A stretch of 64,000 bases of DNA from an uncultured Fidelibacterota bacterium (GCA_913049685.1 CAJWZD010000010.1:1-64000), one strand, 5' to 3'; shown: positions 538-58,079, counted from the stretch's first letter. The notes: a model not told the origin generated them from the sequence alone. Program-made: numbers and translations.

Positions 538-560
538 TGTTTACATACTGTTTATATTAA
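538..560 (+). promoter_or_regulatory. Candidate Pho-box-like direct repeat TGTTTACATACTGTTTATATTAA
   Basis: Two GTTTAYA half-sites 11 bp apart upstream of the response regulator; same arrangement upstream of 14165, 15469 and 18641. Confidence 0.5.
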
Positions 561-688
561 TACTAAAGTGTATTTCAATATTTGTAATCAATTATAGATC
601 ATTTTATTAAAAAATCTGATAAATTTGTATGGACCGATTAGAAATATTAAATTACCAACAAGCAGCCAATAGTTGGAAAGATTATAAA

Positions 689-1372
689 ATGAAAAATAAA
701 ACAGTATTAATTGTTGATGATGAAAAAGATATTAGAAATATTATCAAATATAATCTTGAACAAAAGGGATTAAAATGCATAACTGCTAATGATGGAGAAG
801 AGGCTTTGAAAAAGCTAAGCGATTCTCCTGATTTAATTATTCTTGATATTATGATGCCATCAAAGGATGGCTATGAAGTTTGTCGCACTATTCGTGAACA
901 AGGCAATACCGTGCCAATTATTTTTCTTACTGCGATGGATCGTGAGTTTGATGAGATCAAGGGGCTCGAATATGGTGGAGACGACTACATAAGAAAACCA
1001 TTCAGCCCAAATTTGCTAATTGCTAGAATAAATTCAATCTTTAGAAGGGTGGATAAAATCAAGCAAAAGGGTGCAGTTATAGAATACGATGACTTAAAAA
1101 TTAATATTGAAACCTACATTGCTGAAATTGATGGAAAGGAGCTTACTCTTCCTCGAAAAGAATTCGAGCTTCTAGCCTTTTTTATGTCTCAGCCCAATAA
1201 AATTTTTACCCGTGAAGCCTTATTGTCATCAATATGGGAGGATGATGTTTATGTAGTGGATAGAACCATAGATGTTCATATTAATCGAATTAGATCAAAG
1301 CTTTTAAATTATAAAAATTGTATAGAAACTGTAAAGGGTGTAGGTTATAGATTTAGACCAACAAATAAATAG
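689..1372 (+). CDS. OmpR/PhoB-family response regulator (start likely ATG 689 rather than 629)
   Basis: MKNKTVLIVDDEKD receiver, DIMMPSKDGYEV phospho-acceptor region, KPF motif, C-terminal winged helix (RTIDVHINRIRSKL...VKGVGYRF). Confidence 0.92.
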   Translation: MKNKTVLIVDDEKDIRNIIKYNLEQKGLKCITANDGEEALKKLSDSPDLIILDIMMPSKDGYEVCRTIREQGNTVPIIFLTAMDREFDEIKGLEYGGDDYIRKPFSPNLLIARINSIFRRVDKIKQKGAVIEYDDLKINIETYIAEIDGKELTLPRKEFELLAFFMSQPNKIFTREALLSSIWEDDVYVVDRTIDVHINRIRSKLLNYKNCIETVKGVGYRFRPTNK

Positions 1373-1378
1373 TTTTTA

Positions 1379-2800
1379 TTGCTTAAAATTAGACAGAAAC
1401 TCTTTCTTGCCTTATTTGCGCTTTTATCATTAGGGCTTTTATCTCCAACGTTATTTATAAATCGATCTATTGATCGTGAAGTAAAAGAAGAAATAACAAG
1501 CACCCTTTTATCTCACCTAAAAGCATTTTCATTATATTTATCACAAAATAACTCTCTATCAATTACAGAAATAGCTTCAGATTATTCCAATGCGACCGAT
1601 CTAAGGATAACATTAATCGCAAAAGAAGGCTCTGTTTTAGGTGAATCCGGTTTAAATGAAACCCAAGTATCTCAAATGGATAACCACCTAAATAGACCAG
1701 AGATTCAAATGGCAGATAAAGAAACTTTTGGTGTTGCTACACGATATAGCAGCACTCTAAAAAAAGATTATATTTATGTGGCAATCAAAGCTGAGTCCGG
1801 TCCCGTTTTTTATATTAGAGCTGCTCAAACATTAGATTTTGCTAATTCTTTAATTTCTTTAAGGCAAAGCTATCAGTATAGGATCATATTTCTCGTTTCA
1901 ATGGTATTAGTTTTCTTTACCTTTTTAGTAGATCGCTGGGTAACCTCTCCAATACGTAGGATTGCCAAGGTAGCGGAAAAAATTAAAACTGGTGATTGGT
2001 CAACAAGATCACAAGTTAAAGGTACTGATGAGATCGCAGATTTATCTAGAAGTATTAATGATATGGCAGATACGCTTGGTACTGATATTGCACAAATTTT
2101 AAAAATGAGCGAAGTTAGGTCTGAATTCTTGATAAACGTTACCCATGAACTAAAAACACCTATTGCTTCAATAAGCGGATATATTGAAACACTATTATCT
2201 GGGGCATTGGAAGATGAAAAGGTAAACCGTTCTTTTTTAAAGCGTTCATTAAAAAATACTAGGCGTTTAGAAGCTTTGGTAACAGATCTTGTAGATATTT
2301 CACGAATTGAGACCGGTGAATTAACTATGAATATTTCTCAAATTGATATACTTCCAATTATAGAAGAGTTGGTGCGTGATGCTAGTCTGAGAAACGACAA
2401 TGAAGATATAGAGATAAAAATAAATAACACAATTTCAGACCAGGTATTTGTCGAAGCTGACCCGGATAGAATACACCAAGTGTTTAACAATTTGATCTCA
2501 AATGCTATTCGGTATACCGATAAAGGTCAAATAGTGATGAATATTGAAAGCAAAGGTGACAGGGTGCATTTTTCAGTAAGAGATACCGGTGTGGGCATAA
2601 ATAAAGATTCAATTCAGCGAATTTTTGAAAGATTTTATCGAACTCAAAATGCAAGAAGTAGGGTTAAAAGTGGTACCGGTTTAGGACTTTCAATTGTTAG
2701 GCATATTATAGAAGCCCATGGTGCTAATATTGAAGTAGAAAGTGAGATTGATAAAGGCACAACTTTTTCTTTTGAGTTAAAAAAGATCGATAAAATATAG
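1379..2800 (+). CDS. PhoR-like sensor histidine kinase
   Basis: Two TM segments, HAMP, HELKTPIASISGYIETL H-box, N/G1/G2 boxes (GTGLGLSIVRHIIEAHGA); TTG start; directly follows the response regulator. Confidence 0.9.
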   Translation: MLKIRQKLFLALFALLSLGLLSPTLFINRSIDREVKEEITSTLLSHLKAFSLYLSQNNSLSITEIASDYSNATDLRITLIAKEGSVLGESGLNETQVSQMDNHLNRPEIQMADKETFGVATRYSSTLKKDYIYVAIKAESGPVFYIRAAQTLDFANSLISLRQSYQYRIIFLVSMVLVFFTFLVDRWVTSPIRRIAKVAEKIKTGDWSTRSQVKGTDEIADLSRSINDMADTLGTDIAQILKMSEVRSEFLINVTHELKTPIASISGYIETLLSGALEDEKVNRSFLKRSLKNTRRLEALVTDLVDISRIETGELTMNISQIDILPIIEELVRDASLRNDNEDIEIKINNTISDQVFVEADPDRIHQVFNNLISNAIRYTDKGQIVMNIESKGDRVHFSVRDTGVGINKDSIQRIFERFYRTQNARSRVKSGTGLGLSIVRHIIEAHGANIEVESEIDKGTTFSFELKKIDKI

Positions 2801-2812
2801 CATAGATAAAAA

Positions 2813-3886
2813 ATGAATATTGTTGCACTAAATTCATCAAAAAACTGGGGCGGGAACGAGCGTTGGCTTACTACGGCTTTGAACGGATTGTCAAGCAAAG
2901 GTCACCAAATTTATTTGATTAAGAGACATAATACCGATCACTGGAATAGTTTGAGTGCATCTATAAATGTAATAGAAGCTCCGTTTACGAACGAACTTAG
3001 TATTAAAACAAAAGCAATCATTCGAAATACAATTAAAGAACGAAATTCAGATATACTCTTATCTACAAAGCGAAAGGATTATGTCCTAGGGGCTCAAATC
3101 AAAAATAAGAACAATATTTCTCATATAATGAGACTGGGTATCTCACGACCTATTTTAAAAAGAGATGTTATTCAACGGTATGTTATTTCAAAAAAGGTTG
3201 ATGGAATTATTGTAAATGCACAATCATTAAAAAGTGAATTATTAAACTATAGTTTTATAAAAAGTAATTTCAATCCTGATGATATAGGATGCATCTATAA
3301 CGGTTATGACATTACCAATTCTAAAACTCCGAGATCTAAAAAAATTCGATCAACATTATTAATCAGAAGCGCTGGTAGATTAACAATTCATAAGGGGTAT
3401 GATATACTTTTATCGGCCCTCGATTCAATAAATGACTTGCAGACAAAATATACTTTAGAGATTGCAGGGGAAGGTCCAGAAGAAAAAAGACTTAAAGCGC
3501 TTATAAATAATTACAACTTAGAGTCGCATTGTAAGCTCGTTGGTGAAAAAAAGGATGTAGTAAGTTTTTTTAGTGGAGCAGATCTTGTGGTCATTCCCTC
3601 AAGATCGGAAGGAATTCCAAATACACTCTTTGAGGCCTGGATGGCAAAAAAACCAGTTATTGCGACAACCGCGGGAGGCACCTCAGAGGTTGTGGATAAT
3701 ATGAAAGATGGAATAATTTGCGAGCCAAATTCAGAAAATTTAATGAACGTATTAAAAAATTATTTAAACAACCGAAGTGATTTTAAAGAAATGGGTTTGA
3801 ACGGGTATAATAAGCTGGTACAATCTTTTTCAATGGACAAAATGACAAGAAACCTTGAGCAATACCTCATGGGTTTTATTGATTGA
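2813..3886 (+). CDS. Glycosyltransferase family 4-like
   Basis: SAGRLTIHKGYDILLSAL, ADLVVIPSRSEGIPNTLFEAWMAKKPVIATTAGG: GT-B fold donor-site motifs. Confidence 0.85.
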   Translation: MNIVALNSSKNWGGNERWLTTALNGLSSKGHQIYLIKRHNTDHWNSLSASINVIEAPFTNELSIKTKAIIRNTIKERNSDILLSTKRKDYVLGAQIKNKNNISHIMRLGISRPILKRDVIQRYVISKKVDGIIVNAQSLKSELLNYSFIKSNFNPDDIGCIYNGYDITNSKTPRSKKIRSTLLIRSAGRLTIHKGYDILLSALDSINDLQTKYTLEIAGEGPEEKRLKALINNYNLESHCKLVGEKKDVVSFFSGADLVVIPSRSEGIPNTLFEAWMAKKPVIATTAGGTSEVVDNMKDGIICEPNSENLMNVLKNYLNNRSDFKEMGLNGYNKLVQSFSMDKMTRNLEQYLMGFID

Positions 3887-3896
3887 TATTATTTTT

Positions 3897-4946
3897 ATGT
3901 CAGATGCTAAACCAAATACCCCTACGCTGAATCGCCGTAGAAAATTTATTATAAATTTTCAAAATAAACTGTACAAGAACCTTGACCAAAAGAAAATACC
4001 CGATTCAATTTCAAGTATCATAATTTTCGCTCAAGAGAAGTTGGGAGATGCAATTTTACTGCTTCCATTTTTGAATGCTTTTCACAAGCGATTTCCAGAT
4101 GCGGTAATTGATTTATGCTGTACTTATTATAATAAAAAGGTGTTTGAGGGGATACCGTTTATAAGAAACTGCCTTATCTACCGTCCTTATAATCCACGAT
4201 TTGCTAAAATGATTCGATCTGAGAAATATCAGATTTTGTATAACCCCAAAAGCGGTCCATCAAAAACTTTTCATCAAATGACAAACAAGGTAAATGCTGA
4301 TGTTAAAGTGTGCCTTGACAATGAATACAATAATCCTATTTATAATTATTATCTTCCCAATGACAACACAAAGCATATTGTAGACAAGTACTGCGAACTA
4401 CTCTTTTATTATGATCCACATACTTCTATTACCAATTGGTTGCCAGATTATTTTTATCAATTTCCATCTAGTATAGATAAAAAAAAATACCTGACCGTAA
4501 ATATGAGCGCAGGAAGTCAAAATAGACGATTACCTGTAGATAAATGGATTAAGATCTTTTCACATATTTTAGAAGATAATAACATTCACCTAGCCTTGTT
4601 TGCGTCAAAAAAAGAATCAAAAGACGCTAAAAAAATTAAAGGAATATTTAAAGAGAAAATATATTATCCCTTAGAATCACCTAATCTTTACTATGCTTCT
4701 GGAATTATTAATGATTCTGAGATGTTAATATCGCTAGATACATCATTAATTCATTTAGCTTCTGCTCTAGGCAAACCTGTTCTCGGTTTATATAACAATG
4801 ATATGCTTAATCATACACGATATAGTCCATACAGCACAATTTCTGAATCTGTAATTTCTGATACTGAATTCATTCGAGATATTGAGCTCCCATCAATAAT
4901 TGATTCGTATTCAAAACTTATTGCTAAAATTAAAAAAATTAGATGA
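3897..4946 (+). CDS. Glycosyltransferase family 9 (heptosyltransferase-like); ATG 3897
   Basis: EKLGDAILLLPFLNAFHKRFPDAVIDL and ISLDTSLIHLASALGKPVLGLY are typical of GT9/ADP-heptose LPS heptosyltransferases. Confidence 0.8.
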   Translation: MSDAKPNTPTLNRRRKFIINFQNKLYKNLDQKKIPDSISSIIIFAQEKLGDAILLLPFLNAFHKRFPDAVIDLCCTYYNKKVFEGIPFIRNCLIYRPYNPRFAKMIRSEKYQILYNPKSGPSKTFHQMTNKVNADVKVCLDNEYNNPIYNYYLPNDNTKHIVDKYCELLFYYDPHTSITNWLPDYFYQFPSSIDKKKYLTVNMSAGSQNRRLPVDKWIKIFSHILEDNNIHLALFASKKESKDAKKIKGIFKEKIYYPLESPNLYYASGIINDSEMLISLDTSLIHLASALGKPVLGLYNNDMLNHTRYSPYSTISESVISDTEFIRDIELPSIIDSYSKLIAKIKKIR

Positions 4947-6052
4947 AAATTGCCTATGTCACAAAAGCGCACTGGGGTGATAATAGTCCTGGTGTAATAT
5001 TTTCATATTATCAAGCGCGCAGCTTTGTAGAAAACAACCATGATATATCATTAATTATGCAGCACCCAAAGCGCGCTGTTGATAATAAAAACGATCTTAA
5101 TAAAGTCAATCCAATTGACATAAAATTATTGTCCAACAGACTCGGACCATTTAAAGCCAACGAAATATTTTACCGAAGAGCAAACTCACTAATACTTTCT
5201 AATAATTATGATATAGTGTTTACCCGCGACCCAGGTTATCTACCTAGCTTGGTTAGATTAAAAGAACATGAGAAAAAAGTATATTACCAATCTCATAATT
5301 TTTATATGGATTTTTCAAAGCATGAATACACGCAGAGTGTGAATAGAAAAAAGTTTAATAAATATGAAAATAAATATCTTAATTCACTCAATGGGATGAT
5401 GACTTTAAACACTCCACAAAAAGAGCTTTACGAAAAGTATGTAGACATACCAGTTACAGCATGTCCCCCCGGTCTGAATAAGTTCTCATCTAAATCAAAA
5501 TTTGAAAATAAAGAAGTTGTGTATTGTGGTAGCTTTCAACCTTTAAAGGGAATCGAGATGATTTTAGATACTTATAAAAATAAATCATTCGATTTTAGCC
5601 TAACTCTCATTGGGGGGAGGAATCAGCAAGAACTATCTTATGCAAAAAATTTAATTGGAGAAAAAAATATCAGAAATATTAAACTTAAAGGATGGGTATT
5701 TTATGAAGATTTAGAAAATGTCATATCTAATGCTTCAGTTGGTCTCATGCTATTACCAGATAATTTTTATAACAAATATTTAACCGCTCCCAATAAACTT
5801 TTTGATTATATATCTATGGGATTGCCTGTTGTATGTTCGGACTTACCATCCGTAAGAAACTTAATACCAAGCGGACATACAGGGGTAATTTTTATACCTC
5901 CTGGAGATCACAAAAAATGTAATAAAGAAATTGAAAAGTTGTTAACCAATGAAGCTTATTACAATGAATTACAACGATCGAATATTTTACTATCAGAAAA
6001 CTTGCTGTGGAAGAAACAAACCGAAACACTCATCAAAGCAATGATGAGCTAG
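4943..6052 (+). CDS. Glycosyltransferase (GT4-like)
   Basis: VVYCGSFQPLKGIEMIL, NKLFDYISMGLPVVCSDLPSVRNLI. Confidence 0.8.
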   Translation: MKIAYVTKAHWGDNSPGVIFSYYQARSFVENNHDISLIMQHPKRAVDNKNDLNKVNPIDIKLLSNRLGPFKANEIFYRRANSLILSNNYDIVFTRDPGYLPSLVRLKEHEKKVYYQSHNFYMDFSKHEYTQSVNRKKFNKYENKYLNSLNGMMTLNTPQKELYEKYVDIPVTACPPGLNKFSSKSKFENKEVVYCGSFQPLKGIEMILDTYKNKSFDFSLTLIGGRNQQELSYAKNLIGEKNIRNIKLKGWVFYEDLENVISNASVGLMLLPDNFYNKYLTAPNKLFDYISMGLPVVCSDLPSVRNLIPSGHTGVIFIPPGDHKKCNKEIEKLLTNEAYYNELQRSNILLSENLLWKKQTETLIKAMMS

Positions 6053-6054
6053 TT

Positions 6055-7212
6055 ATGAATATCGCAATTATTACCGGTCATTTTCCGCCCAGTAAAGGAG
6101 GGGGTATTGCAGAATGGGCCCTTGGAATAGCTAGAGAGCTCCCAAAGCTTGGTCACACCACCTCTGTTTATGTGACCCACCGTAAAGATAGAGACTTAGC
6201 TATTCATAAAGAAGAGCAATTTGAATGCAGGCCGATGTATGGAAGGAATTGGCACGAGTTTCACCGATTTTATGCTGGGTATTATATGTGGAAAATATTA
6301 AAAGAAAATCCCGAGACTATATTTATAGTAACTACCTGGGGAATGGCTAAGGCATTTAATTTTCTAAAAAAACGTTACCCTAAAAGCAAAATGATTGTTG
6401 TTGCCCATGGTCTGGAAATTACCCGCCTAAAATCATTAAGAGAACTAAAGACAATGACAAAAGTTGTTTCTTCATCGGATCTAGTATTGTCTGTTAGCAA
6501 GTTTACCAGGGATGAAATTATTAATAGATTAGATGGAATAGATACTAATCATGTAAAATTTCTACCAAATGGAGTTGATACAAATAGATTCTTTCCAAGT
6601 GGAGTTGACGATGCTTTTTTACAGAAATACAGTATACCTGTTGGCTCAGATATAATATTAACTCTTGCACGAATAATAAAGAGAAAAGCTCACGATGATG
6701 TTATTAAGGCCATACCAGATATTCTTACGGAATTTCCCAAAGCCCATTATGTTATTGCTGGTCCTCACAGAAAAAAAGATCCGTACTTACATTATTTAAA
6801 ACAATTAACTAAAGAACTTTCAGTAGAGAAGCATGTGACATTTATTGATTTCATACCTGAAGAAGACCTAAAAAAGATATACTCTGTTAGCAAAGTTTAT
6901 GTGATGGCAAGCAGAACCTTACATGAAACTGGTGACAGTGAGGGTTTTGGTATTACTTTTTTAGAGGCTAATGCATGTGGATGTCCTGTTATAGGAAGCT
7001 ATGAGGGAGGTATTCCTGATGCAGTTGAAAATGAAATTAATGGACTTTTAGTTCCATCGGACAGTCCCAATGACATTTCTAAATCAATTAAGAAATTATT
7101 CTCAAATGAAGACTATAGAAAAAATATAGCAAAGATGGGGATGGCAAGAGTTTCAGAAAAGTTTACCTGGGAAAAATTAACAATACAAATGCTAGACATG
7201 ATCAATAGTTGA
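6055..7212 (+). CDS. Glycosyltransferase family 4; start likely ATG 6055
   Basis: MNIAIITGHFPPSKGGGIAEWALGIARELPKLGH, FLPNGVDTNRF, EGFGITFLEANACGCPVIGSYEGGIPDAV. Confidence 0.88.
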   Translation: MNIAIITGHFPPSKGGGIAEWALGIARELPKLGHTTSVYVTHRKDRDLAIHKEEQFECRPMYGRNWHEFHRFYAGYYMWKILKENPETIFIVTTWGMAKAFNFLKKRYPKSKMIVVAHGLEITRLKSLRELKTMTKVVSSSDLVLSVSKFTRDEIINRLDGIDTNHVKFLPNGVDTNRFFPSGVDDAFLQKYSIPVGSDIILTLARIIKRKAHDDVIKAIPDILTEFPKAHYVIAGPHRKKDPYLHYLKQLTKELSVEKHVTFIDFIPEEDLKKIYSVSKVYVMASRTLHETGDSEGFGITFLEANACGCPVIGSYEGGIPDAVENEINGLLVPSDSPNDISKSIKKLFSNEDYRKNIAKMGMARVSEKFTWEKLTIQMLDMINS

Positions 7213-7647
7213 CTTGAGAGAATATCCGGTTAAGCTTTTATACGCTTTTTTATATTTCTTAATTTTTTGCTTATCAACTTTTGATGAGGTTCTATTCTGT
7301 TTTCTTCGTAAATAATTGTCAGTCAAATCTGCAAGCTTAACAGTCGTAGCGAGTTTATTCGTTTTTATATTATCTATATAATTAAAATATTTCTGCCCTT
7401 TTTTTCTTGATAAGAGGTCAACAGCTTTACATACTTTTGGGTCAAAGCCAATATCTTCAAGTTCTTGTATAGTTATTTTTCCAGACTCAACAACATCATG
7501 TAGCACCGCAACGGTTCGTGAGCGATTATTTTTCATTAAAGACATAACTCTTATCGGATGCATTATTGCTGGTTCTCGATTACGACCTTTTTTGCCTTTA
7601 TGAATCTTTGCCGCAATAATAATCGCTTTATTAAGTGAGTTTTTCAT
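7192..7647 (-). CDS. HD-domain hydrolase, RelA/SpoT hydrolase-like
   Basis: HPIRVMSL...AVLHDVVESGKITIQEL resembles the SpoT/MESH1 HD signature; convergent with the GT operon. Confidence 0.7.
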   Translation of the reverse strand: MKNSLNKAIIIAAKIHKGKKGRNREPAIMHPIRVMSLMKNNRSRTVAVLHDVVESGKITIQELEDIGFDPKVCKAVDLLSRKKGQKYFNYIDNIKTNKLATTVKLADLTDNYLRRKQNRTSSKVDKQKIKKYKKAYKSLTGYSLKSTIDHV

Positions 7648-7694
7648 AACTTTGTTTACCGAAGTAAGTAACTTTTAAAATATATCAATATATC

Positions 7695-8528
7695 ATGATA
7701 ATCTACAATAGAACAGAGTATTCAGAATTAACTAATTCGCAATATCGAAAAGAAAAAAGGCGTTTACAGATTGAGCTTTTGAAATTGCAAGAATGGACGA
7801 TTGACACTAACCAAAGAATCGCGATACTTCTTGAAGGTAGGGATGCTGCGGGTAAAGGGTCCACAATACAACGATTTATAGAAAATCTTATGCCTAAGGC
7901 TACCAAAATAGTTGAGTTAGGAGTTCCAAACAAAAAACAAGAAAAAAATTGGTTTAAAACATGGGAGAAAAGGTTACCAAAAAAGGGAACCATCACATTT
8001 TTTGATAGGAGCTGGTATTCTAGGGCGCTTATTCAGCCAGCAATGGGATATTGTTCAGAGAACCAATATAAATACTTTATGAAGAAAGTAAATAATTGGG
8101 AAAATACACTGATAGAAAAAGGATTAAAGCTGATAAAAATATATCTTTCAATATCAAAAGAAAATCAGAAACTGCGGTTTCAGTTTCGAAAAGATCACGA
8201 TCTAAAATATTGGAAACTGTCAACAAATGACTGGAAAGCACATAAAAATTGGCAACTACTTACAGATTATAAAGAGCAAATGTTTGAGCAGACATCTACA
8301 AAAATAGCTCCTTGGGTTGTAATAAATTCTGATAATAAGATGATAGCTAGATTAAATGCGATAAGGTACGTTTTATCAGATATTGAATATCCAAATAGAA
8401 AAAATTTGAAACCTAAGAAATGGTCAAAAGAATCTCCTGTTTATAATATTTCGCTTTTCAATACACAATTTAATAATCTTAATCGCGAACAATATGAGTT
8501 GTTGAATAGGCTCAAAGGTCACGAATAA
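7695..8528 (+). CDS. ppk2: Polyphosphate kinase 2 (PPK2 family)
   Basis: ILLEGRDAAGKGSTIQRF (Walker A), TFFDRSWYSRA (Walker B), KIYLSISKENQKLRFQFR... Confidence 0.93.
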   Translation: MIIYNRTEYSELTNSQYRKEKRRLQIELLKLQEWTIDTNQRIAILLEGRDAAGKGSTIQRFIENLMPKATKIVELGVPNKKQEKNWFKTWEKRLPKKGTITFFDRSWYSRALIQPAMGYCSENQYKYFMKKVNNWENTLIEKGLKLIKIYLSISKENQKLRFQFRKDHDLKYWKLSTNDWKAHKNWQLLTDYKEQMFEQTSTKIAPWVVINSDNKMIARLNAIRYVLSDIEYPNRKNLKPKKWSKESPVYNISLFNTQFNNLNREQYELLNRLKGHE

Positions 8529-8553
8529 ATTAGTTTTTCATTTTCAATAAAAT

Positions 8554-8584
8554 AAAAAAGGCTGGAATTGATCCAGCCTTTTTT
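8554..8584. terminator. Bidirectional Rho-independent terminator
   Basis: AAAAAAGGCTGG-aattgat-CCAGCCTTTTTT between convergent genes. Confidence 0.85.
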
Positions 8585-8609
8585 ATTAATTAAGATTTAA
8601 TTAAATCTT

Positions 8610-9845
8610 TTACTTAGCCCACGAAGACTTGAGAAGTGCAACCGATGGATCTTCCGTGTTTGAGACAAGAACGTATCCATTTTTATATGCAAGTCCTTCG
8701 GGTTCTCCAGCACTAGTTCCTGCAGTGTCACCGGTATAGTCATTCATTTCAGTGATAGCTCCAGAATCATATTTAGGATTTGCTGGGTCAGTAATATCAT
8801 ACACAACTACTGCTCCCGCATCTTGCAGGGTTGTTAAAACGAATGCTTTGTCACCGGCCTCAACTATTACAACTTCTTCAGGCTCAATTCCTTTTCTCCT
8901 ATCATCCCAATCCCAGTTGCTAGGAAGATCATCTGCCATCCTAATGAACCTTTGCGTTACAGGTTTTCCGCTACCATCTAATGAATGGACTCCAATGGTT
9001 CCATCGTATTCCCCTGCAGTACATATCAATGTACCATCAGAATTGACCCATATTCCATCTGGTTCATGTTCAGGGTTAGAGTACGTAACTTTATTTTGTA
9101 AAACATCTGGTGGATTGGATAATGAAAACCAACCCATCTCATTAGACTCTTGAAGTGTCATATAAACGGTATCACCGTTTGGTGCAATTTTTACACCTTC
9201 AGGCTCTGCCAGGTTTCCATTCGATCCTGTATGGGATATTTTCATATCTTTAACAAGAGATGCTTTGTCAATACCTGCGCTTATATCGTAGACAGATACT
9301 CCAGGAAAACCAAGACTTTGACATCCACCATCAACACCGTCTTCATAATCAAACTCATTTACTACAACTACAAATTTGTTATCAACAGCAATATCAACAG
9401 CGTCGGGGTTAAATCCAAGTTCATATGGACCGTATTTTTGTAGAGTTGAGGTGTCAATTAAGTAGAGTTCTCCTCTTAAGCATGCACCCTTAGAAACCAC
9501 TACAGCTAAAATTGATTCATCGACACTAACGTCAATTGAGGAAGCATCGGCATCAGCATCTTGGGTTATTTGAACACTTTGACCGCTCATAGTTATTCCG
9601 GAAGGGGTGATACTTATGAAATCAACAGAATTTTGTCTAGAATTAACAATGACACCCAATTCATCAGTAACGAATCGAATTAATTCAGGCTGAGACTGGG
9701 TTCCGTCACCAGTAGTAATCTTATCAACCATTGTAATGCTAAAACTCTCAACAACAAGTTGTTCTTCTGCTTCTTTATCTTCACATCCACTTATTAACAG
9801 AGCGATGATTAAGAGACTTTGAATATAAGTATATTTAATTTTCAC
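8610..9845 (-). CDS. Lipoprotein with beta-propeller (choice-of-anchor I-like)
   Basis: Lipobox LLISGCEDKE; repeated blades (EPEGVKIAPNGDTVYMTLQESNE..., EPEGLAYKNGYVLVSNTEDPSVALLK). Confidence 0.7.
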   Translation of the reverse strand: MKIKYTYIQSLLIIALLISGCEDKEAEEQLVVESFSITMVDKITTGDGTQSQPELIRFVTDELGVIVNSRQNSVDFISITPSGITMSGQSVQITQDADADASSIDVSVDESILAVVVSKGACLRGELYLIDTSTLQKYGPYELGFNPDAVDIAVDNKFVVVVNEFDYEDGVDGGCQSLGFPGVSVYDISAGIDKASLVKDMKISHTGSNGNLAEPEGVKIAPNGDTVYMTLQESNEMGWFSLSNPPDVLQNKVTYSNPEHEPDGIWVNSDGTLICTAGEYDGTIGVHSLDGSGKPVTQRFIRMADDLPSNWDWDDRRKGIEPEEVVIVEAGDKAFVLTTLQDAGAVVVYDITDPANPKYDSGAITEMNDYTGDTAGTSAGEPEGLAYKNGYVLVSNTEDPSVALLKSSWAK

Positions 9846-9870
9846 TATAATTAACTCCTATTTTTAGTTT

Positions 9871-11106
9871 TTAAAAATTTAGTTCCAACTGAACAAGTAA
9901 TTGATCGTCTTTGACTTCTGGCTGAAAGCTCCTTCTCTCGCTATCAGCATATTCTTGTTTATCCCCTGTTACTTCTCCAAGGAAATAATATTCAACTTTT
10001 AACTTGGCGTAATCAGTAATATCATAGACAGAGGCAAGCGTTAACAGCTTTCTATCCCAAGTTTGAGGGTCTTTAAGTAAAGGAAAAAAATCATTTCCAC
10101 CAGGGTCAATTCGTAGTTCACCGTATCGGACTAACATCAATAAGTTCTTTTGCACGTTAGAACTTATTTCTCCATAAAACCCGCCTCTTTTTAAGAAGCC
10201 ATCCACCGAACCAATATATTCTGCGCGGAGAAGAGAATTAACAATGCTCATTTCACCTCTGAGGCCGTACCACGAGTGATCAATATTAGCATCCTTAGAT
10301 AACACGTTGTCAGGTTCTAGATTAGCGTAATAGTCAAAATCATAGTGTAGACGCTTTTTCCAATCCTCATCGTCAATTAGTTTACCTGTGTAGTACCAGC
10401 TTTGAAAATTCATAATACCTAAATCCATTTTGCCTCTAAGGCCAAATTCGTAGGTTTGACCATCTGTCTTTTCTGTATCATCATAGACCAACATACGAAA
10501 AGATTTATCTTCAAGAGCATCATCGTAACCTAGTGGTCTTTTAAGAGCAATTGACGCGCCATAATCAAAAATTGCAAATTTTCTACTTACGTCAATATGA
10601 TACTGTCTTCCTTTCCAGTATGCAGTACCGATAAGGGGATACCCTTCGGTTTTTCTTTTTAATGCAACTGCAGGTCTATTTTTTCCAACTTCAACTCGCA
10701 GATTATCTTTTTTATAAAGAAGATAATGCTTATCGGCGTATGCCCGGTTATCGTTAAATCGCAGGCTAAATCGATACGAAATTGTGGGGGAATAAATTAC
10801 TTTAAAATCTAAAACAGCTTTATCAATTCTGGTGTGTGGGCTGCGAGTTTCAATTTTTTTTAAAAAACCTTCTCTGTTTCCTGCACCACCTTTTCCTTCC
10901 ACATCAATGAATTCTACCTCAACCTCACCTGAGAGTTCAATTTTAACACCAGATGGTATACTAAGCGATATGTCGCTGTCACTAAGATCACTTGATTGGC
11001 TCAAAATCTTACTAGGTAGAATATATACGAATAATAATAAAATGAGTTTCGAGTATGTCAATTTATGTTTCCTTTGGAAGATATTTTGAAAATCTTTGTA
11101 GCACAA
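9871..11106 (-). CDS. Phosphate-selective porin O/P-like outer-membrane porin (TTG start near 11061 also possible)
   Basis: Signal peptide, alternating beta strands, KAVLDFKVIYSPTISYRFSLRFNDNRAYADKHYLLYKKDNLRVEVGKNRPAVALKR; C-terminal aromatic LLVQLELNF. Confidence 0.72.
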   Translation of the reverse strand: MCYKDFQNIFQRKHKLTYSKLILLLFVYILPSKILSQSSDLSDSDISLSIPSGVKIELSGEVEVEFIDVEGKGGAGNREGFLKKIETRSPHTRIDKAVLDFKVIYSPTISYRFSLRFNDNRAYADKHYLLYKKDNLRVEVGKNRPAVALKRKTEGYPLIGTAYWKGRQYHIDVSRKFAIFDYGASIALKRPLGYDDALEDKSFRMLVYDDTEKTDGQTYEFGLRGKMDLGIMNFQSWYYTGKLIDDEDWKKRLHYDFDYYANLEPDNVLSKDANIDHSWYGLRGEMSIVNSLLRAEYIGSVDGFLKRGGFYGEISSNVQKNLLMLVRYGELRIDPGGNDFFPLLKDPQTWDRKLLTLASVYDITDYAKLKVEYYFLGEVTGDKQEYADSERRSFQPEVKDDQLLVQLELNF

Positions 11107-11115
11107 ATTGCATTT

Positions 11116-11137
11116 CTAATATTAACAAATTATAAAA
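11116..11137 (-). promoter_or_regulatory. Candidate Pho-box-like repeat (minus strand TTTTATAATTTGTTAATATTAG-type)
   Basis: Near match to the GTTTATAATTTGTTTATAT motif with 11-bp periodicity upstream of the porin; AT-rich, so weaker than the other copies. Confidence 0.3.
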
Positions 11138-11288
11138 ACATCTTTTTATCCTCAAAATACTGTATTTCTAATTTAAATAAATTATTAACAAATCTATTTT
11201 TTGAAAAATATTGTAGATGAGCTATAAATATAAAATTAAATTCCTTTTCAATGATAACCGCATTAATAAAATCTTATCAATTTAAATA

Positions 11289-12206
11289 GTGATTCATCAT
11301 ACAAGAAAAGATAGTCTGAGATTTGCTTCTATAGATATTGGTAGCAATGCAATGCGACTGCTTTTTTGCAGAGTCATTGAAAGCGATGGTTCGCCAACGT
11401 TTGTTAAGGAGTCTTTAATTCGAATGCCTTTAAGGCTAGGAAAAGATGCTTTTACAATCGGCGCGATATCAGTAAAAAATTCTAAAAAATTAATTGACAC
11501 CATTCACGCTTTTTATTTGATGATTAGAGCTTATGAACCTGTCAGTTTCAGGTCGTGTGCTACCGCTGCCCTTAGAACCGCATCAAATGGAAAAAAGCTA
11601 GTCGAAACAATAAATAGTAAAGTTGATGTTGGTCTTGAAATAATCTCCGGCGAAGAAGAGGCAAGGATAATTATGGCAAACCATATAGATCAACATTTAA
11701 ACCAGGAAAAAAATTATATTTATATCGATGTGGGTGGAGGTAGTACAGAAGTAAGTTTCATTTATAAAAGACAGAAGGTATCATCTAAATCTTTTTCTAT
11801 TGGGTCTGTGCGTTTACTAGAAGATCAAGTAACAAATAATGAATGGGATGAACTGAAGCGATGGGTTTTAAAAAATAAAGCAAAATTTAAGGGCGAAATA
11901 AAAGCAATTGGGAGCGGAGGAAATATTAATAAAATATTTTCTATGTCTCAACTTAAGAAAAAAAGTGAAATTGATATTTCAACTATTCAAAATGTATTGA
12001 GCGATATTAGCCCTTTAAGTATTCAAAAGAGAATTACCAAATTAGGATTGCGACCAGATAGAGCAGACGTTATATTGCATGGTGGTAAAATTTATGAATC
12101 AATCATGAAATGGTCAGAGTGCAAAAAAATGATTGTGCCGCTTTCAGGTTTGCCGGATGGAATAATTCATGAGCTTTACGATTATTATACAAATACAAAA
12201 ATCTAG
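11289..12206 (+). CDS. ppx: Ppx/GppA phosphatase family (exopolyphosphatase)
   Basis: FASIDIGSNAMRLL, SGEEEARI, YIDVGGGSTEVSF, AIGSGGNINKI. Confidence 0.9.
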   Translation: MIHHTRKDSLRFASIDIGSNAMRLLFCRVIESDGSPTFVKESLIRMPLRLGKDAFTIGAISVKNSKKLIDTIHAFYLMIRAYEPVSFRSCATAALRTASNGKKLVETINSKVDVGLEIISGEEEARIIMANHIDQHLNQEKNYIYIDVGGGSTEVSFIYKRQKVSSKSFSIGSVRLLEDQVTNNEWDELKRWVLKNKAKFKGEIKAIGSGGNINKIFSMSQLKKKSEIDISTIQNVLSDISPLSIQKRITKLGLRPDRADVILHGGKIYESIMKWSECKKMIVPLSGLPDGIIHELYDYYTNTKI

Positions 12207-12208
12207 CC

Positions 12209-13345
12209 TTGGAAGAAAAAAACCAAAATAAATTTTATCTTTATCTTCGCATAATTGCAGTTTTTGCAGTTTTGTATTTATTCCTTGTCAGCATAGGAAT
12301 GATCGGATCCGCTTTTAAGGGTTTAGGCCGGGGATTTGCTGAAAGTCTTTTTCAAAGTCAGGCTAGCCCATTCATAGGACTTTTTATTGGAATTTTAGCA
12401 ACGGGTTTAATTCAAAGCTCATCAACAACAACTTCCTTAGTGGTTGGAATGGTAGCAGCGGGTACTTTCGGCAGCGACCCGAAATTAGCGGTAGCTGCAG
12501 CAGTTCCCTATATAATGGGAGCGAATATAGGTACCAGTATCACTAACACCATTGTTTCATTAGGGCACATTGTCAATAAAGAAGAATTCAAAAGAGCATT
12601 TTCTGCATCCGTTGTGCATGATTTTTTTAACATATTCGCTGTAATCGTTATTTTTCCGATAGAGCTTGTCTTTGGTGTAATCAGTAAATTTGCGATGCTA
12701 TTGTCAACCATTCTGTTAGGTAGTGGCGGTGGTACTTTTACAAGTCCAATTAAATTAATAACCAAACCTACCGTAAAGTGGATTGAAAATTTATTTCATC
12801 AGCAGTCCATTATTGAGTCAAACGTTTTATTGCTTTTAGTGGCTTTAGGTTTTCTATTTTTCTCACTAAGGAATCTTACTAAACTTATAAAGTCTCTAGT
12901 AATGTTTAGGCTTCAGGCATTTTTTGACACGCATATTTTTAAGACTACACTTCGAGCAGTTTTTTTTGGAATCATAATTACCATTCTAGTGCAAAGTAGT
13001 TCGATTACAACATCATTGGTCATTCCACTTGCTGGGGCGGGTGTATTGACTCTGAGGCAAATATTCCCCTATACCTTAGGTGCAAATATTGGAACCACTG
13101 TAACCTCACTTTTAGCAAGTATGGTCTCAGGTACTATAGCGCCTTTAGCGGTAGCTCTTAGCCATTTGACTTTTAATTTACTTGGAATTGCACTTTTATA
13201 CCCTTTCAAGAAAGTTCGAGAAATTCCTATATATCTTGCGGAATGGTTCTCTGATTTAGCTACCCAAAACAAGATTTACCCATTGCTCTATATACTAATA
13301 GTATTTTTTCTAATCCCGTTAATGCTAATAACTTTAGTAAGGTAA
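12209..13345 (+). CDS. Na+/phosphate cotransporter (NptA/PNaS family)
   Basis: Duplicated QSSS motif: GLIQSSSTTTSLVVGMVAAG and ILVQSSSITTSLVIPLAGAG, GANIGTSIT/GANIGTTVT. Confidence 0.93.
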   Translation: MEEKNQNKFYLYLRIIAVFAVLYLFLVSIGMIGSAFKGLGRGFAESLFQSQASPFIGLFIGILATGLIQSSSTTTSLVVGMVAAGTFGSDPKLAVAAAVPYIMGANIGTSITNTIVSLGHIVNKEEFKRAFSASVVHDFFNIFAVIVIFPIELVFGVISKFAMLLSTILLGSGGGTFTSPIKLITKPTVKWIENLFHQQSIIESNVLLLLVALGFLFFSLRNLTKLIKSLVMFRLQAFFDTHIFKTTLRAVFFGIIITILVQSSSITTSLVIPLAGAGVLTLRQIFPYTLGANIGTTVTSLLASMVSGTIAPLAVALSHLTFNLLGIALLYPFKKVREIPIYLAEWFSDLATQNKIYPLLYILIVFFLIPLMLITLVR

Positions 13346-13349
13346 TAAT

Positions 13350-14021
13350 ATGTCACTCTTTAAAGATATTTTGAAAATTTGGAAATCAGACAGTTTGCTC
13401 TTGCAGGCTTGGGAAGAAACCTTTTCTATGCTAACCTTATGTAGTGATGTTTATCACAAATCAATTTTAAATTTTAACACTGGAGAAAAAATTGATGAAG
13501 TTAAAGCTCTCAAAAAAAAAGATAGGATAATAAATGATTATCAAATTTCGGTTAGGAAGAAAGTCTTAACACATTTTTCTACAGGTGAAAACATGCGTGA
13601 AATCACCAATGGTTTAATTTTAGTTGATATTGTTGTTGATGTAGAGCGAATGGGTGATTATTGTAAAAATATCTCTGATTTAACAATAATGAATCAAGGA
13701 CCTTTCGATTTTGGGAGCTTTTCTAAAGATGTCAAGAAAATCGAAAAGGAAGTCTCATCGAGATTTTCAGACACGATAAAGTGCATTGAAGAGCAAAACG
13801 AAAGTCTTGCATTATCCCAGTTAAATAATTATAAAAAAATGATATCTAACATATCTGATAAAATAGTAGAAGAATTGATAGTGTCTAACCATGACATTGA
13901 AGGCAAAAAATCTGTTGCATTATCATTATATGTTAGGTACTTAAAACGTATTGGCGCCCACCTTAAAAATATTACATCATCCGTTGTAAATCCATATGAG
14001 CGGATCGGCTATCGGGATTAA
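13350..14021 (+). CDS. PhoU-domain protein (separate from the NptA subunit)
   Basis: All-helical, ILVDIVVDVERMGDYCKNISDL PhoU-type motif; directly downstream of the Na/Pi cotransporter. Confidence 0.82.
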   Translation: MSLFKDILKIWKSDSLLLQAWEETFSMLTLCSDVYHKSILNFNTGEKIDEVKALKKKDRIINDYQISVRKKVLTHFSTGENMREITNGLILVDIVVDVERMGDYCKNISDLTIMNQGPFDFGSFSKDVKKIEKEVSSRFSDTIKCIEEQNESLALSQLNNYKKMISNISDKIVEELIVSNHDIEGKKSVALSLYVRYLKRIGAHLKNITSSVVNPYERIGYRD

Positions 14022-14037
14022 AATAAATTCGCATTTT

Positions 14038-14060
14038 CGTTTACAATTAATTTATATCGC
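14038..14060 (+). promoter_or_regulatory. Candidate Pho-box-like direct repeat CGTTTACAATTAATTTATATCGC
   Basis: Two half-sites 11 bp apart upstream of the 14165 lipoprotein. Confidence 0.45.
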
Positions 14061-14164
14061 TGTAATAACATTTTAATCTAGCCAAACTAGTTTCACTTAC
14101 ATTAAAAGATTTAATTCTTTTTCAATAAAACTATTATAATAAAAAAATTTTAACTGAGGACATT

Positions 14165-15388
14165 ATGATTCTTAAGAATACACGTAAAATTTTACCCTTT
14201 ATGCTTTGTAGTATATTTATTTTTTCAGCCTGTGAGGAAGATGAGGATTCTGGGCCTAGTCTTGGTGAGGTTGTAGGAACTTGGAAGCTTTCTTCGTTTA
14301 AGGGTACCTATGATCGCAAAGTTATCACGAAAGAAGGTGCTGAGCATTCAAAAGATAAATACGAATTGGTCGCTTCTTGGAAAGACGGTGAAGCATTTAC
14401 AGAAAAAACAGGGTTTGATTATTCAGCTTTAAAAGCATCATCAGATCAGGTACTTGCTACCTTCCAAGCGGGGGATGATGCTCCTGGTTTTCCCAGAACT
14501 TCTGACCTTAACTCAGCTCAGCTAGAAGCAAATCAGATTAATTTAACAACAGTATTGTTCGACGCTCCTTCAAAAGGTGATTATGGAACGTATACTATCG
14601 AAGGAACCTATCCTACTATCAGGCTAGATCAAGATTCATGTTTGACCTACTCAACGGTTGCACCAATTACAGATTCAGGTGAATATACTGTTGATGTTGA
14701 TGAAAATGGCTCCGCAAAGCCTAACAATTTTATTTTGCGTCCAAAAGCAGGACAAGATCAAGTTTTGCCACCTTTTCCTGATGGCACATATAGCGTTGAT
14801 GCTGTTTCTAGCCCCAAAACATTTTCTTTAAAGTTCTTGGATCGCGACTCTCACGATGAACTTTTCTCTCAGGTGCAAACGAGTTTTAGTGAAGCTGACG
14901 ACCGCGTTATATCTGGTATTAATGGACTTCCAGTAGATGATGACGGGGCTTGGGATTCTACTGCTGAAGGAGATTCCCATTCCGAAGCTTTTGTAAAACA
15001 TTCCTCTTTTGAGTTATGGGGTGGTATGATGACATGGTATGCAATGAATGTTATTTCAGAAACCCAACAAAAAATTTCTGATGTAAAAAATCCCCTGCAA
15101 GATCTAAGTGGTGATGGAAAAATTGACATTAGCGATATGATGCTTTATATGATTTCTGATATTAGAAATGGGTATGGATCTAAAACTGTTTATGGTCTTG
15201 AATACGCTAAGCTTATCAGCTTTTCAAACAAATTAGAGCCCACGATGGTTGATGATAGCGGCCATTCATTTTCTATGGATTCTATGGACATGGGCGGTAA
15301 GTTAACATATGTGATTAAAGAAGGTCTTTGTATCCCAGTTAATGAAACTATTGATTTTGATACAAAATGGGTTGAAGTAGCTCAATAA
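14165..15388 (+). CDS. Secreted lipoprotein, lipocalin-like N-terminus plus dockerin/EF-hand-like motif
   Basis: Lipobox FSACEEDED; VGTWKLSSFKGTYD; DLSGDGKIDISDMMLYMI (Ca-binding loop-like). Confidence 0.6.
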   Translation: MILKNTRKILPFMLCSIFIFSACEEDEDSGPSLGEVVGTWKLSSFKGTYDRKVITKEGAEHSKDKYELVASWKDGEAFTEKTGFDYSALKASSDQVLATFQAGDDAPGFPRTSDLNSAQLEANQINLTTVLFDAPSKGDYGTYTIEGTYPTIRLDQDSCLTYSTVAPITDSGEYTVDVDENGSAKPNNFILRPKAGQDQVLPPFPDGTYSVDAVSSPKTFSLKFLDRDSHDELFSQVQTSFSEADDRVISGINGLPVDDDGAWDSTAEGDSHSEAFVKHSSFELWGGMMTWYAMNVISETQQKISDVKNPLQDLSGDGKIDISDMMLYMISDIRNGYGSKTVYGLEYAKLISFSNKLEPTMVDDSGHSFSMDSMDMGGKLTYVIKEGLCIPVNETIDFDTKWVEVAQ

Positions 15389-15408
15389 ATATCAAACAAA
15401 TAGCTCTA

Positions 15409-15431
15409 CGTTTATAATTTGTTTATATACG
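15409..15431 (+). promoter_or_regulatory. Candidate Pho-box-like direct repeat CGTTTATAATTTGTTTATATACG
   Basis: Near-identical GTTTATA half-sites at 11-bp spacing upstream of the TonB receptor. Confidence 0.5.
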
Positions 15432-15468
15432 TGCAATAGTTTGGCATGTTTACAAACCCTTCATCCTA

Positions 15469-18400
15469 ATGCGTTTTAAATATATTTTATTATTATTTGT
15501 TACCTCTAGCGCGCTAACCGCGCAATCTGGAAATATTTCAGGTAACATTACTGATGCGTCGACAGGCGAACCATTAGTTGGCGCTAACGTATTTCTTGAA
15601 AGCACCTCCTTAGGAGCAGCAACAGATTTTGAGGGCAATTATTTTATTGATGATATACCTGTTGGGTCTTATACAATCATTGCTAATTATATAGGGTACG
15701 ACCGATTAACAATTGAAAATGTAATTGTCGAAGATGGAATTACCACCATACAGAATATTTCTCTTTCCTCAGGAACCATTGAATTACAAGCTGTAGATGT
15801 TCAAGCCGAAAAAAAACTTGGTGGAGATGCTGAGGCGCTTGAAGCTAAAGAAAAAGCTGTTGAAATAGTTGACAATATTTCTTCTGATCAAATTTCAAAA
15901 GCTGGAGATTCAGATGCTGCAGATGCTGTGCGCAGGGTGACTGGAGTTACGGTTACCGATGGTAAATATCTTGTCGTTAGAGGTTTGGGTGATCGGTACA
16001 GTACGGCGCAGTTAAATTCTGTGGGAATGCCTAGCCCTGAAGCTGAGAAACGTTCTGTACCTTTGAACCTTTTTAGTACAGCTCTAATTGCTGGAATAGA
16101 TGTTGCCAAAAGTTACAGGCCAGACTTACCTGGGACATTTGGTGGAGGTAATGTTAATATTAAAACAAAACTTTACCCCGCAAAGACTATATATAAAATT
16201 AAATTTGGATCCGGATTGAATTCAAATTTAATGCCAGGTTCAGATTTCATTTCCAATATGGATGGGCCAGGAGATTTTTTTGGCTATGACCATAATAGGG
16301 TGCGCGATATTCCAAGTCAATTTAATGATCAATTAATTAATTTTACGAATATACCAAATGATTTCAGAACCGATCTTGCTTCTTTTTATGTGAATATGAT
16401 TGGTGACACGGTTTGGTATGATACACCTGAAAGAAAAACAGCGTGGTACTCCGAAGCGTTTGAAAAGAATAGATCTATGCCAAACATCTTTAAAAATTCT
16501 CTTCAAAAATCTAGTCTACCTAAAAGTATTAGCTTGACCTACGGAACAAAAATTGACCTTAATCCTGATTTTGAAATGGGATATCTATTTGATGGTAATT
16601 TTTCTGGAAAACATAAACATAACTCCCAATACATAAAACGCTATGCAGGATTAAATGATCCAGATAATGAGGGTGAATCCATATTAAGAAATAGCTACCT
16701 TGATCTTGAGCAAAAAACTTACGAATACAACACCAACCTTGGGTTTAATGCTAGTATAGGATTGACCTTCAAAGATCTTATAAAATTTGGAATACGAAAT
16801 GTCTACACACACACTTCAAAAGATTATTTTGCACGTGCAATGGGAGAATCTGGGGAGCTATCCAAAACAATTTTGGAGGATGGATCTGTTGATGAAATGG
16901 GGCTACTGTTCAGTCAAAGGTATAATGAAAAAGCAATAAATTTGACCACTTTTTCGGTTGAAGGTGCGTTCTTGTTAGGTAGTTTTTTTGGGAACCTTGA
17001 AAACGAATTTGATTTAAAAGTTACCGCTGGACAATCAAATATGTATGAACCTTTTGTTGCAAAGGCAGAGTACGAATATGACCCCAACTTTGATCAGTAT
17101 ACAATTTATGCTCGAAATGGCTCAAGACCTGGTGAATATTATGGAAGCTATGGTGACGAAGAAATAAATGGTCTCATTTTTAATTATGGATTAAGCTCAA
17201 GATTTGGAAAAATTAAATTTGGTGTGCGAATCGATGATAAGAAGAGGGATTTTTCTAGACGATGGATTTATTCTGATTGGTCTGATATGAGCGTACAGTT
17301 TGATAGAACAAGAATTTCAATAGATGAAGATAGTCCAAATGAGGTTCTATCTGAAGAATACTGGGGGAGTTTCGACGGTGATCAAATCCAGCATGGACTG
17401 TTATTTGTCGAACAGACCAGCGGCTTTGATGGTTACAAGGCCAGTGAAAATATTGATGCAGCCTATATCATGTATGATCAAACCTTTTTTGATAAACTTC
17501 AATTGAGCGTAGGAGCTCGAAGAGAAAAATACATTATGTCAATGGACCCCTATAATCCAGTTACAAACGAGAGACCATCTTATAGAGATTCTGTAGGCAA
17601 CCCTATTCCTCTTGAAATTGATAATGACGATAGCAAAATTTTACCAGCATTCATATTAAATTACTCACTAACTGATAAATCTAAAGTTCGTAGCTCATAC
17701 TCAAAGACACTTGCACGACCTCAATTTAGAGAGTATGCCCCTTACACCTTTTCTGAGTTCTTAGGTGCCGACATTTCTGTTGGTTATCCATTTTTAAAAA
17801 ATACTGAACTAACTAGCTTTGACTTGAGATACGAATATTACCCAAAAGGAATAGAATTGATATCTGTTGGCATATTTAAAAAGGATTTTAAAAACCCCAT
17901 TGAAGAATCTCTCCTTGGTGTAAGCGGTCTTGCTCCCTATAAATCATGGCAGAATTCTGACTATGCGCACATAACAGGTTTAGAGCTTGAATATCGTAAA
18001 AATCTTGATTTCATTCCTTCTCGCTTTGGTTTTTTATTTTTGAACACAAATTTTAGTGTCAGCAGTTCAGAAGTGGCAATCCCTGAAAAGGTATATGTTT
18101 TTGTGCAACGATCAACAAGCAGTGAAATTGTCCCATTTGCCAATCCGGTTACCGAAAGAACTAGACCACTTCAAGGGCAATCGAATTTAGTCTATAATAC
18201 TAGTTTGAATTATAATAACCAAAGTGGATACGAATTAAATCTGGCCTACAATTCTTTCAGTAAGCGATTGGTATCGATTTCTGGCGATATACCTGGTCAT
18301 TTTTGGGAGCTTCCTTTTCATTCATTAAATATAACAGGTTCAAAAAAAATTGGCCCCTTTAAAGCATCATTTAAGATTCAAAACGTACTTGGTGAAAGCG

Positions 18401-18495
18401 TAATTCATGCCCATGACTTTAGAGGTGATTATTACAATACTAAAGAATTTAATCCTGGTAGGAATCTATCCATCTCACTTCAATACAATAACTAG
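15469..18495 (+). CDS. TonB-dependent receptor with N-terminal carboxypeptidase-regulatory-like domain
   Basis: GNISGNITDASTGEPLVGANVFLESTSLGAATDFEGNYFI; plug LVVRGLGDRYSTAQLNSVGMPSPEAEKRSVPLNLF; C-terminal barrel strands. Confidence 0.93.
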   Translation: MRFKYILLLFVTSSALTAQSGNISGNITDASTGEPLVGANVFLESTSLGAATDFEGNYFIDDIPVGSYTIIANYIGYDRLTIENVIVEDGITTIQNISLSSGTIELQAVDVQAEKKLGGDAEALEAKEKAVEIVDNISSDQISKAGDSDAADAVRRVTGVTVTDGKYLVVRGLGDRYSTAQLNSVGMPSPEAEKRSVPLNLFSTALIAGIDVAKSYRPDLPGTFGGGNVNIKTKLYPAKTIYKIKFGSGLNSNLMPGSDFISNMDGPGDFFGYDHNRVRDIPSQFNDQLINFTNIPNDFRTDLASFYVNMIGDTVWYDTPERKTAWYSEAFEKNRSMPNIFKNSLQKSSLPKSISLTYGTKIDLNPDFEMGYLFDGNFSGKHKHNSQYIKRYAGLNDPDNEGESILRNSYLDLEQKTYEYNTNLGFNASIGLTFKDLIKFGIRNVYTHTSKDYFARAMGESGELSKTILEDGSVDEMGLLFSQRYNEKAINLTTFSVEGAFLLGSFFGNLENEFDLKVTAGQSNMYEPFVAKAEYEYDPNFDQYTIYARNGSRPGEYYGSYGDEEINGLIFNYGLSSRFGKIKFGVRIDDKKRDFSRRWIYSDWSDMSVQFDRTRISIDEDSPNEVLSEEYWGSFDGDQIQHGLLFVEQTSGFDGYKASENIDAAYIMYDQTFFDKLQLSVGARREKYIMSMDPYNPVTNERPSYRDSVGNPIPLEIDNDDSKILPAFILNYSLTDKSKVRSSYSKTLARPQFREYAPYTFSEFLGADISVGYPFLKNTELTSFDLRYEYYPKGIELISVGIFKKDFKNPIEESLLGVSGLAPYKSWQNSDYAHITGLELEYRKNLDFIPSRFGFLFLNTNFSVSSSEVAIPEKVYVFVQRSTSSEIVPFANPVTERTRPLQGQSNLVYNTSLNYNNQSGYELNLAYNSFSKRLVSISGDIPGHFWELPFHSLNITGSKKIGPFKASFKIQNVLGESVIHAHDFRGDYYNTKEFNPGRNLSISLQYNN

Positions 18496-18518
18496 ATTTT
18501 TGTTTCCTTCGGTCTAGT

Positions 18519-18541
18519 TGTTTACAATTTCTTTACACATC
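18519..18541 (+). promoter_or_regulatory. Candidate Pho-box-like direct repeat TGTTTACAATTTCTTTACACATC
   Basis: Two TTTACA half-sites 11 bp apart upstream of the beta-helix protein. Confidence 0.5.
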
Positions 18542-34040: not shown

Positions 34041-34475
34041 TTACCACGGAAATTCTGGTTTGATTATTACCATAATCAAAATGATTAGCAAAATAAAAAA
34101 AGGAATTTCATTAATCTTTCTAAAAAATAAAGACTCTTTGCTATTTGTATTATTTTTAAAGTTTTTCAAAAATTTTAGTAGCCATATATGGTATATCGTC
34201 ATAATGATCACAGCAAAAAATTTAATTATTAGCCAACCGTAAATACCTAATATATAAGTTAAGTATAGCCCAGTTATCCAAACCAAGACCAATGAGGGCG
34301 TACCAATATAGAAATACAGCCTGTATTCCATAATTTTAAATGTTTCTGATGTAATCTTATCGTTTACTTTATCAGCATGGTAAACAAATAATCGTGGCAA
34401 GTATAGTAAGCTTGCCATCCAAGCAACCATGAACATTACATGAAATACTTTAACCCATAGATAAACGCTGTGCAT
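34041..34475 (-). CDS. hemJ: HemJ-type protoporphyrinogen IX oxidase
   Basis: VKVFHVMFMVAWMASLLYLPRLFVYHA, four TM; adjacent to hemF. Confidence 0.9.
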   Translation of the reverse strand: MHSVYLWVKVFHVMFMVAWMASLLYLPRLFVYHADKVNDKITSETFKIMEYRLYFYIGTPSLVLVWITGLYLTYILGIYGWLIIKFFAVIIMTIYHIWLLKFLKNFKNNTNSKESLFFRKINEIPFFILLIILIMVIIKPEFPW

Positions 34476-39758: not shown

Positions 39759-39865
39759 AAGATTATGAAGCGTTATTAAAAATATATGGTCAAATAAAAT
39801 GAATATTCATAATTTCGACCGATGAGTCTAATATAATTTTAAGATACTGTTAAAGGTTTTTTACA

Positions 39866-55434: not shown

Positions 55435-57985
<2,551 letters not shown>

Positions 57986-57991
57986 TTTGAA

Positions 57992-58040: not shown

Positions 58041-58079
58041 AAATTTTTACATAATTATTTTAATTGAAAGGGGAAATTT

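Follow-up and report, generated by a model that had tools for sequence, protein, structure and literature searches.

The direct repeats that precede genes of the phosphate-themed block in the window (the whole stretch of 64,000 nucleotides that we analysed, from an uncultured Fidelibacterota bacterium) are very probably Pho boxes that serve as operators for the PhoB-like product of the gene at 689-1372, a regulator which would switch the block on under phosphate limitation. We observed the motif itself, its 11-bp period, its restriction to the block and its PhoB-linked conservation in relatives, and we detected neither a second OmpR/PhoB regulator nor a Pst system.

All four repeats of the form GTTTAYA-N4-GTTTAYA that the first-pass annotation had reported were confirmed, at 538-560, 14038-14060, 15409-15431 and 18519-18541. 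With at most one mismatch the pattern occurred 4 times in the window, compared with 0.23 ± 0.51 times in 100 dinucleotide shuffles (largest count 2), so that the repeats clearly stood out from shuffled sequence; with at most two mismatches the window count was only weakly above chance (8 vs 3.65 ± 2.1, with 5 of the 100 shuffles reaching 8). Scarcity beyond the block had been set beforehand as a test that could refute the proposal, and we found the motif nearly confined to the block in the assembly to which the window belongs as contig C10 (1,625,343 bases, about 79% complete, so that absences from this genome are provisional). The whole assembly held exactly two perfect copies, at 539 and 15410, both in the block, and no perfect match to the backwards control pattern. 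Seven matches were found genome-wide with at most one mismatch: the four in the block, all intergenic and pointing at the next gene, and three outside the window (C3:64764, C5:48572 and C9:8491), all coding and inside long open reading frames. That four of these seven should fall within one block of 21 kb has a probability of about 1e-6 under the binomial distribution, a result that holds after correction for about 80 such blocks, the block having been picked after the fact. A refined consensus, GTTWAYAATTTRTTWAYA, yielded five matches genome-wide at up to one mismatch, all in the block, a count that is partly circular because the consensus was refined using these loci. Chance occurrence in AT-rich DNA was ruled out by the shuffles, by the backwards control in the bacterium's own genome and by the coding or intergenic placement of the matches. 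Counting bare motifs was uninformative as an order-wide test of the regulon, since 130 genomes contained only 11 exact matches and the backwards pattern was more frequent, and we therefore used orthologous upstream regions instead.

The boxes on the plus strand lie before phoB (539-556, GTTTACA-TACT-GTTTATA, with orthologous boxes in relatives), a lipoprotein gene (14039-14056, GTTTACA-ATTA-ATTTATA, with a box also at the G008 orthologue that adjoins phoBR), a TonB-dependent receptor gene (15410-15427, GTTTATA-ATTT-GTTTATA, a perfect copy) and the gene of a secreted protein (18520-18537, GTTTACA-ATTT-CTTTACA). Alignment of 21 sites gave the consensus GTTWAYA-ATTT-RTTWAYA followed by T, with a conserved spacer as well. 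Half-site scores peaked at 0, at +11 and weakly at +22, and nowhere else, bearing out the proposal of an 11-bp-periodic operator of the PhoB/OmpR type. Upstream of phoB the tandem was longer in several relatives, with three to four half-sites in G011 and G018 and three in G002 and G008. At several of the structural-gene sites a TAATAA-like hexamer starts 6 bp after the box, not 10 bp, which places the first TTTAYA 17 bp upstream of the hexamer, like a -35 element; this spacing is suggestive only.

The candidate regulator of these sites (689-1372, plus strand) combines a receiver domain (PF00072) with a Trans_reg_C winged helix (PF00486), and is followed on the same strand at 1379-2800 by a phoR/pnpS-like sensor kinase with HAMP, HisKA and HATPase_c domains and, by reading, a two-TM N-terminus; a PAS domain was not found in the kinase. 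The regulator was the only member of the OmpR/PhoB family at E<1e-25 in the assembly. The closest solved structures to its DNA-binding domain are those of E. coli PhoB (3t72/1qqi/1gxp), and its receiver is close to that of B. subtilis PhoP (1mvo). It scored under the curated PhoB cut-offs (TIGR02154, 236.7 vs 296.2 bits; NF053854, 240.1 vs 270 bits), these being nevertheless its best-scoring families, and the kinase too was under the curated cut-offs of PnpS, its best NCBIfam match (285.1 vs 400), and of TIGR02966 (247.7 vs 334.2). The recognition-helix region, VVDRTIDVHINRIRxKL, was identical in the eight box-bearing PhoB proteins compared, bar one position outside the helix core, and differed in a Pst-linked PhoB paralogue of G022. 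Directly behind phoBR in this genus lie four glycosyltransferase-like genes (2813-7212), which elsewhere in the family occur without phoBR and possibly serve envelope remodelling. Further along the window, a Fur/PerR-like regulator gene followed by katG (catalase-peroxidase) and a flavodoxin-like gene (55435-58592) probably forms a peroxide-stress unit, and reading of the open reading frames at 34041-41155 showed a haem biosynthesis cluster (ferrochelatase, HemE, HemB, HemC/D-like, ALA-synthase-like).

Conservation in orthologous intergenic regions, which the first-pass annotation had named as a check, was found. With nptA as query we reached 60 related genomes and with phoB the order, in which PhoB of the 689-1372 type was patchily distributed, being present in 10 of 130 genomes. 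We scored the upstream regions of relatives with a PWM trained only on the four window sites; those from relatives carrying this PhoB numbered 16 and belonged to phoB (nine, one of them shared with a porin-like operon), nptA (four), porin/ppx, ppx and lipoprotein genes (one each). Scores of at least 11 bits were reached in 14 of these 16 regions, as opposed to 0 of 11 nptA upstream regions in relatives lacking this PhoB (Fisher 6e-6, the genomes of one genus not being independent). A box preceded phoB at p<0.05 in eight of the nine relatives, which supports, at the level of sequence, the earlier suggestion that phoBR is autoregulated; the two weaker regions were those of the G004 phoB (p=0.08) and the G008 lipoprotein gene (p=0.06). 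Boxes were thus present in four genera before phoB, nptA, porin or lipoprotein genes, and in two genera other than that of the window nptA itself was preceded by a box, with nptA-phoU adjoining phoBR. De novo EM on 12 regions of relatives, the window excluded, recovered this motif in reverse complement (LLR 244, vs 174 ± 5 and at most 190 in shuffled controls). The motif that EM returned from the nptA regions of relatives lacking this PhoB (LLR 230) was rejected as an operator, since it appears to reflect the conserved 3' end of fadB, the adjacent gene, which these regions include.

The regulon had been drawn too small in the first-pass annotation, which missed a porin-like operon at 11106-8610 on the minus strand and the two boxes upstream of it, also on the minus strand. 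Both are among the five matches to the refined consensus: a start-proximal box at 11120-11137 (TTTTATA-ATTT-GTTAATA) and a distal one at 11172-11189 (GTTAATA-ATTT-ATTTAAA) in the divergent porinP/ppx intergenic region, in which G002 has a box as well. The first gene, porinP (9871-11106), encodes a predicted outer-membrane beta-barrel with, by reading, a signal peptide and a C-terminal Phe and with no family match; the TTG at 11106 is probably upstream of its true start. The second (8610-9845) encodes a lipoprotein-like predicted beta-propeller with a weak choice-of-anchor I match. PorinP is 77% identical in both G002 and G011, and the operon 77-83%; in G002 it stands in the same place as in the window, with the box kept, and in G011 it is divergent from phoB, with which it has in common a perfect box of up to four half-sites. 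In G001 and G004 porinP is missing upstream of ppx and a box is left in reverse orientation to ppx (L041, L042), suggesting that the box serves ppx-nptA-phoU as well, or that it is a relic. A PDB sequence search returned nothing for the porin-like protein or for the lipoprotein encoded at 14165-15388, and a marginal match only for the propeller; single-sequence structure predictions of the first two were unusable (pLDDT about 31).

The remaining boxed genes, all on the plus strand, encode that lipoprotein (14165-15388), which has no family match, a TonB-dependent receptor with a CarboxypepD_reg domain (15469-18495) and a secreted two-repeat protein with a type IX secretion/FlgD-like tail (18641-21517). 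Control of these three by the regulator, as first proposed, agrees with the box before each of them, but the lipoprotein and TonB receptor pair is not specific to phosphate. We found relatives of the lipoprotein in 18 genomes of the family, mostly ones without the 689-1372-type PhoB, and one weak match elsewhere; a TonB receptor usually comes next, in what is a generic module. The box is present at the copies that adjoin phoBR (window and G008) and absent at paralogues of the module, including those in the bacterium's own genome (C14) and in G018, which suggests that the cluster was recruited into the regulon and is not itself phosphate-specific.

The phosphate theme of the block is borne out by nptA, phoU, ppx and ppk2, all of which lie within it. 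The exopolyphosphatase-like gene ppx (11289-12206), the Na/Pi cotransporter gene nptA (12209-13345) and phoU directly after it (13350-14021) are on the plus strand, and in the window this operon has boxes in reverse orientation only, nptA being boxed in relatives. PstB (TIGR00972) was not detected above its cut-off in the bacterium's own genome, nor in any other genome with the 689-1372-type PhoB except G004; these assemblies are incomplete (best 96%), and those lacking a PstB over cut-off include G014 and G007 (92-96% complete). The Pst genes of G012, G022 and G004 share contigs with more distant PhoB paralogues (36-43% identity), which form a second, Pst-linked PhoB type in the family (L190 on G022:C11, G012:C101, G004:C71 and G004:C20). 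In G022 this second type directly adjoins nptA-phoU, where we detected no clear GTTWAYA box. As no PstB was detected, phosphate uptake seems to depend on NptA, the gene of which is directly followed by phoU, and the input signal probably comes through NptA and PhoU rather than Pst-PhoU. Sensing of this kind is plausible by analogy with S. aureus, in which the PhoR-type kinase can be repressed by NptA through its PhoU domain (PMC13170248). Both cases tie a PhoU-type protein to NptA; here NptA and PhoU are encoded by separate adjacent genes and no PstB exceeds the cut-off, whereas in S. aureus NptA exists alongside Pst and Pit (PMC13170248).

The PhoP box of B. subtilis consists of TTAACA-like repeats and has a core nearly identical to TTWAYA; the target genes there are different. 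Sensing in B. subtilis is teichoic-acid-linked, and the species has no PhoU (PMC13170248). With the E. coli Pho box the repeats share two tandem 7-bp half-sites, the 11-bp period and a position before phosphate genes and phoB. They are not of the E. coli type, however, as the half-site is GTTWAYA and not CTGTCAT (PMC4415409), the -10-like hexamer lies about 6 bp and not about 10 bp downstream (PMC1906773), and Pst was not detected. The first-pass annotation had called the box divergent, which is correct only relative to E. coli CTGTCAT: the Streptomyces and cyanobacterial half-sites are similar, and like boxes precede phoB in some of the Bacteroidota/Ignavibacteriota sampled. The Streptomyces PhoP box (GTTCACC-N4; PMC4415409) has the same GTT-CAY core and geometry, with a GC-rich half-site and other target genes. 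The cyanobacterial SphR box, with half-site CTTAACCT followed by N3 and an 11-bp period (PMC1906773), shares the TTAAC/TTTAC core, the period and often at least three repeats, as at phoB; it differs in the first base and the 3' end, and SphR targets pst and phoA genes. Of 76 PhoB loci from farther afield, chiefly in Bacteroidota, Ignavibacteriota and Deltaproteobacteria, 24 contained a match at p<=0.05 in the 250 bp before phoB, vs 3 of 76 coding controls; as many of these 24 come from Sphingobacterium species that are close to one another, the result is suggestive only. We also noted GTTWAYA-type tandem repeats before or near phoB in Bacteroidota/Ignavibacteriota (L085, L090, L096, L117 and L067), those of L117 comprising about four to five half-sites about 3.4 kb before phoB. 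Our literature search found no described Pho box for the Neomarinimicrobiota phylum, and a paper on Bacteroides fragilis PhoB gave no box sequence.

Could the repeats be merely core promoters, with TTTAYA as the -35 element, a TAATAA-like -10 element 17 bp on, and the second TTTAYA an AT-rich by-product? At the sites 14040, 15411 and 18521 there is indeed a TAATAA, CAATAG or TAATCA hexamer 17 bp beyond TTTAYA. However, conservation across genera extends to the second half-site and to the ATTT spacer, the nptA promoters of relatives lacking this PhoB are without the tandem, and the tandem is nearly confined to one locus genome-wide, whereas core promoters would be expected everywhere; we consider this explanation highly improbable. 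It is also very unlikely that the repeats are real operators of another, non-PhoB regulator acting on the block, a reading for which one can cite the perfect copy of GTTTACAATTCGTTTACA that G005 and G012 keep without a 689-1372-type PhoB. That copy is not at a promoter, lying a few bases past the phoU stop between convergent genes (L050:11435-11452 and L047:8210-8227), and is conserved in two species of one genus with the flanks diverged. Against this reading, tandem half-sites at 11 bp are characteristic of PhoB/OmpR regulators, our search of the genome turned up no second member of that family, and the box stands in phoB's own promoter and tracks the presence of PhoB.

A third possibility, that the 689-1372 regulator does bind these operators but answers to another signal, such as envelope stress or a different nutrient, is unlikely. 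In its favour are the scores of regulator and kinase below the PhoB/PhoR equivalog cut-offs, with even the kinase's best match, PnpS, below cut-off, and the lack of an assigned substrate for the lipoprotein, the TonB receptor and the secreted protein. Phosphate is favoured instead by the nptA-phoU pair, which in two other genera adjoins phoBR and bears the box, and by ppx and ppk2 within the block.

Taking the repeats as Pho boxes, we infer that the PhoB-like regulator binds them, that the signal is phosphate and is sensed through NptA-PhoU, and that the genes are activated and not repressed. If it works like E. coli PhoB, the phosphorylated regulator would bind two 7-bp GTTWAYA half-sites in tandem (up to four at phoB), one helical turn of 11 bp apart, and under phosphate limitation would turn on its own operon, the beta-barrel and propeller-lipoprotein operon, and the lipoprotein, TonB receptor and secreted-protein cluster, with its input probably coming from NptA and the neighbouring PhoU rather than from Pst-PhoU. 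A switch of this type is mechanistically ordinary, and the unusual part is the Pst-free, NptA-centred gene content. More tentatively, in a reading that we hold to be close to evenly balanced, this Neomarinimicrobiota family may have a Pst-free Pho regulon, in which PhoBR with GTTWAYA boxes senses phosphate by way of NptA and the adjacent PhoU and has as its targets, in place of Pst and alkaline phosphatase, a set of proteins for uptake at the outer membrane (beta-barrel, TonB receptor, and secreted and lipid-anchored proteins). The boxes provide an operator sequence that can be tested, and from which Pho targets can be predicted, in a marine phylum that is widespread and uncultured, and they point to natural Pho control without Pst, which is relevant to how PhoR-type kinases may read phosphate through other pairs of PhoU and transporter.
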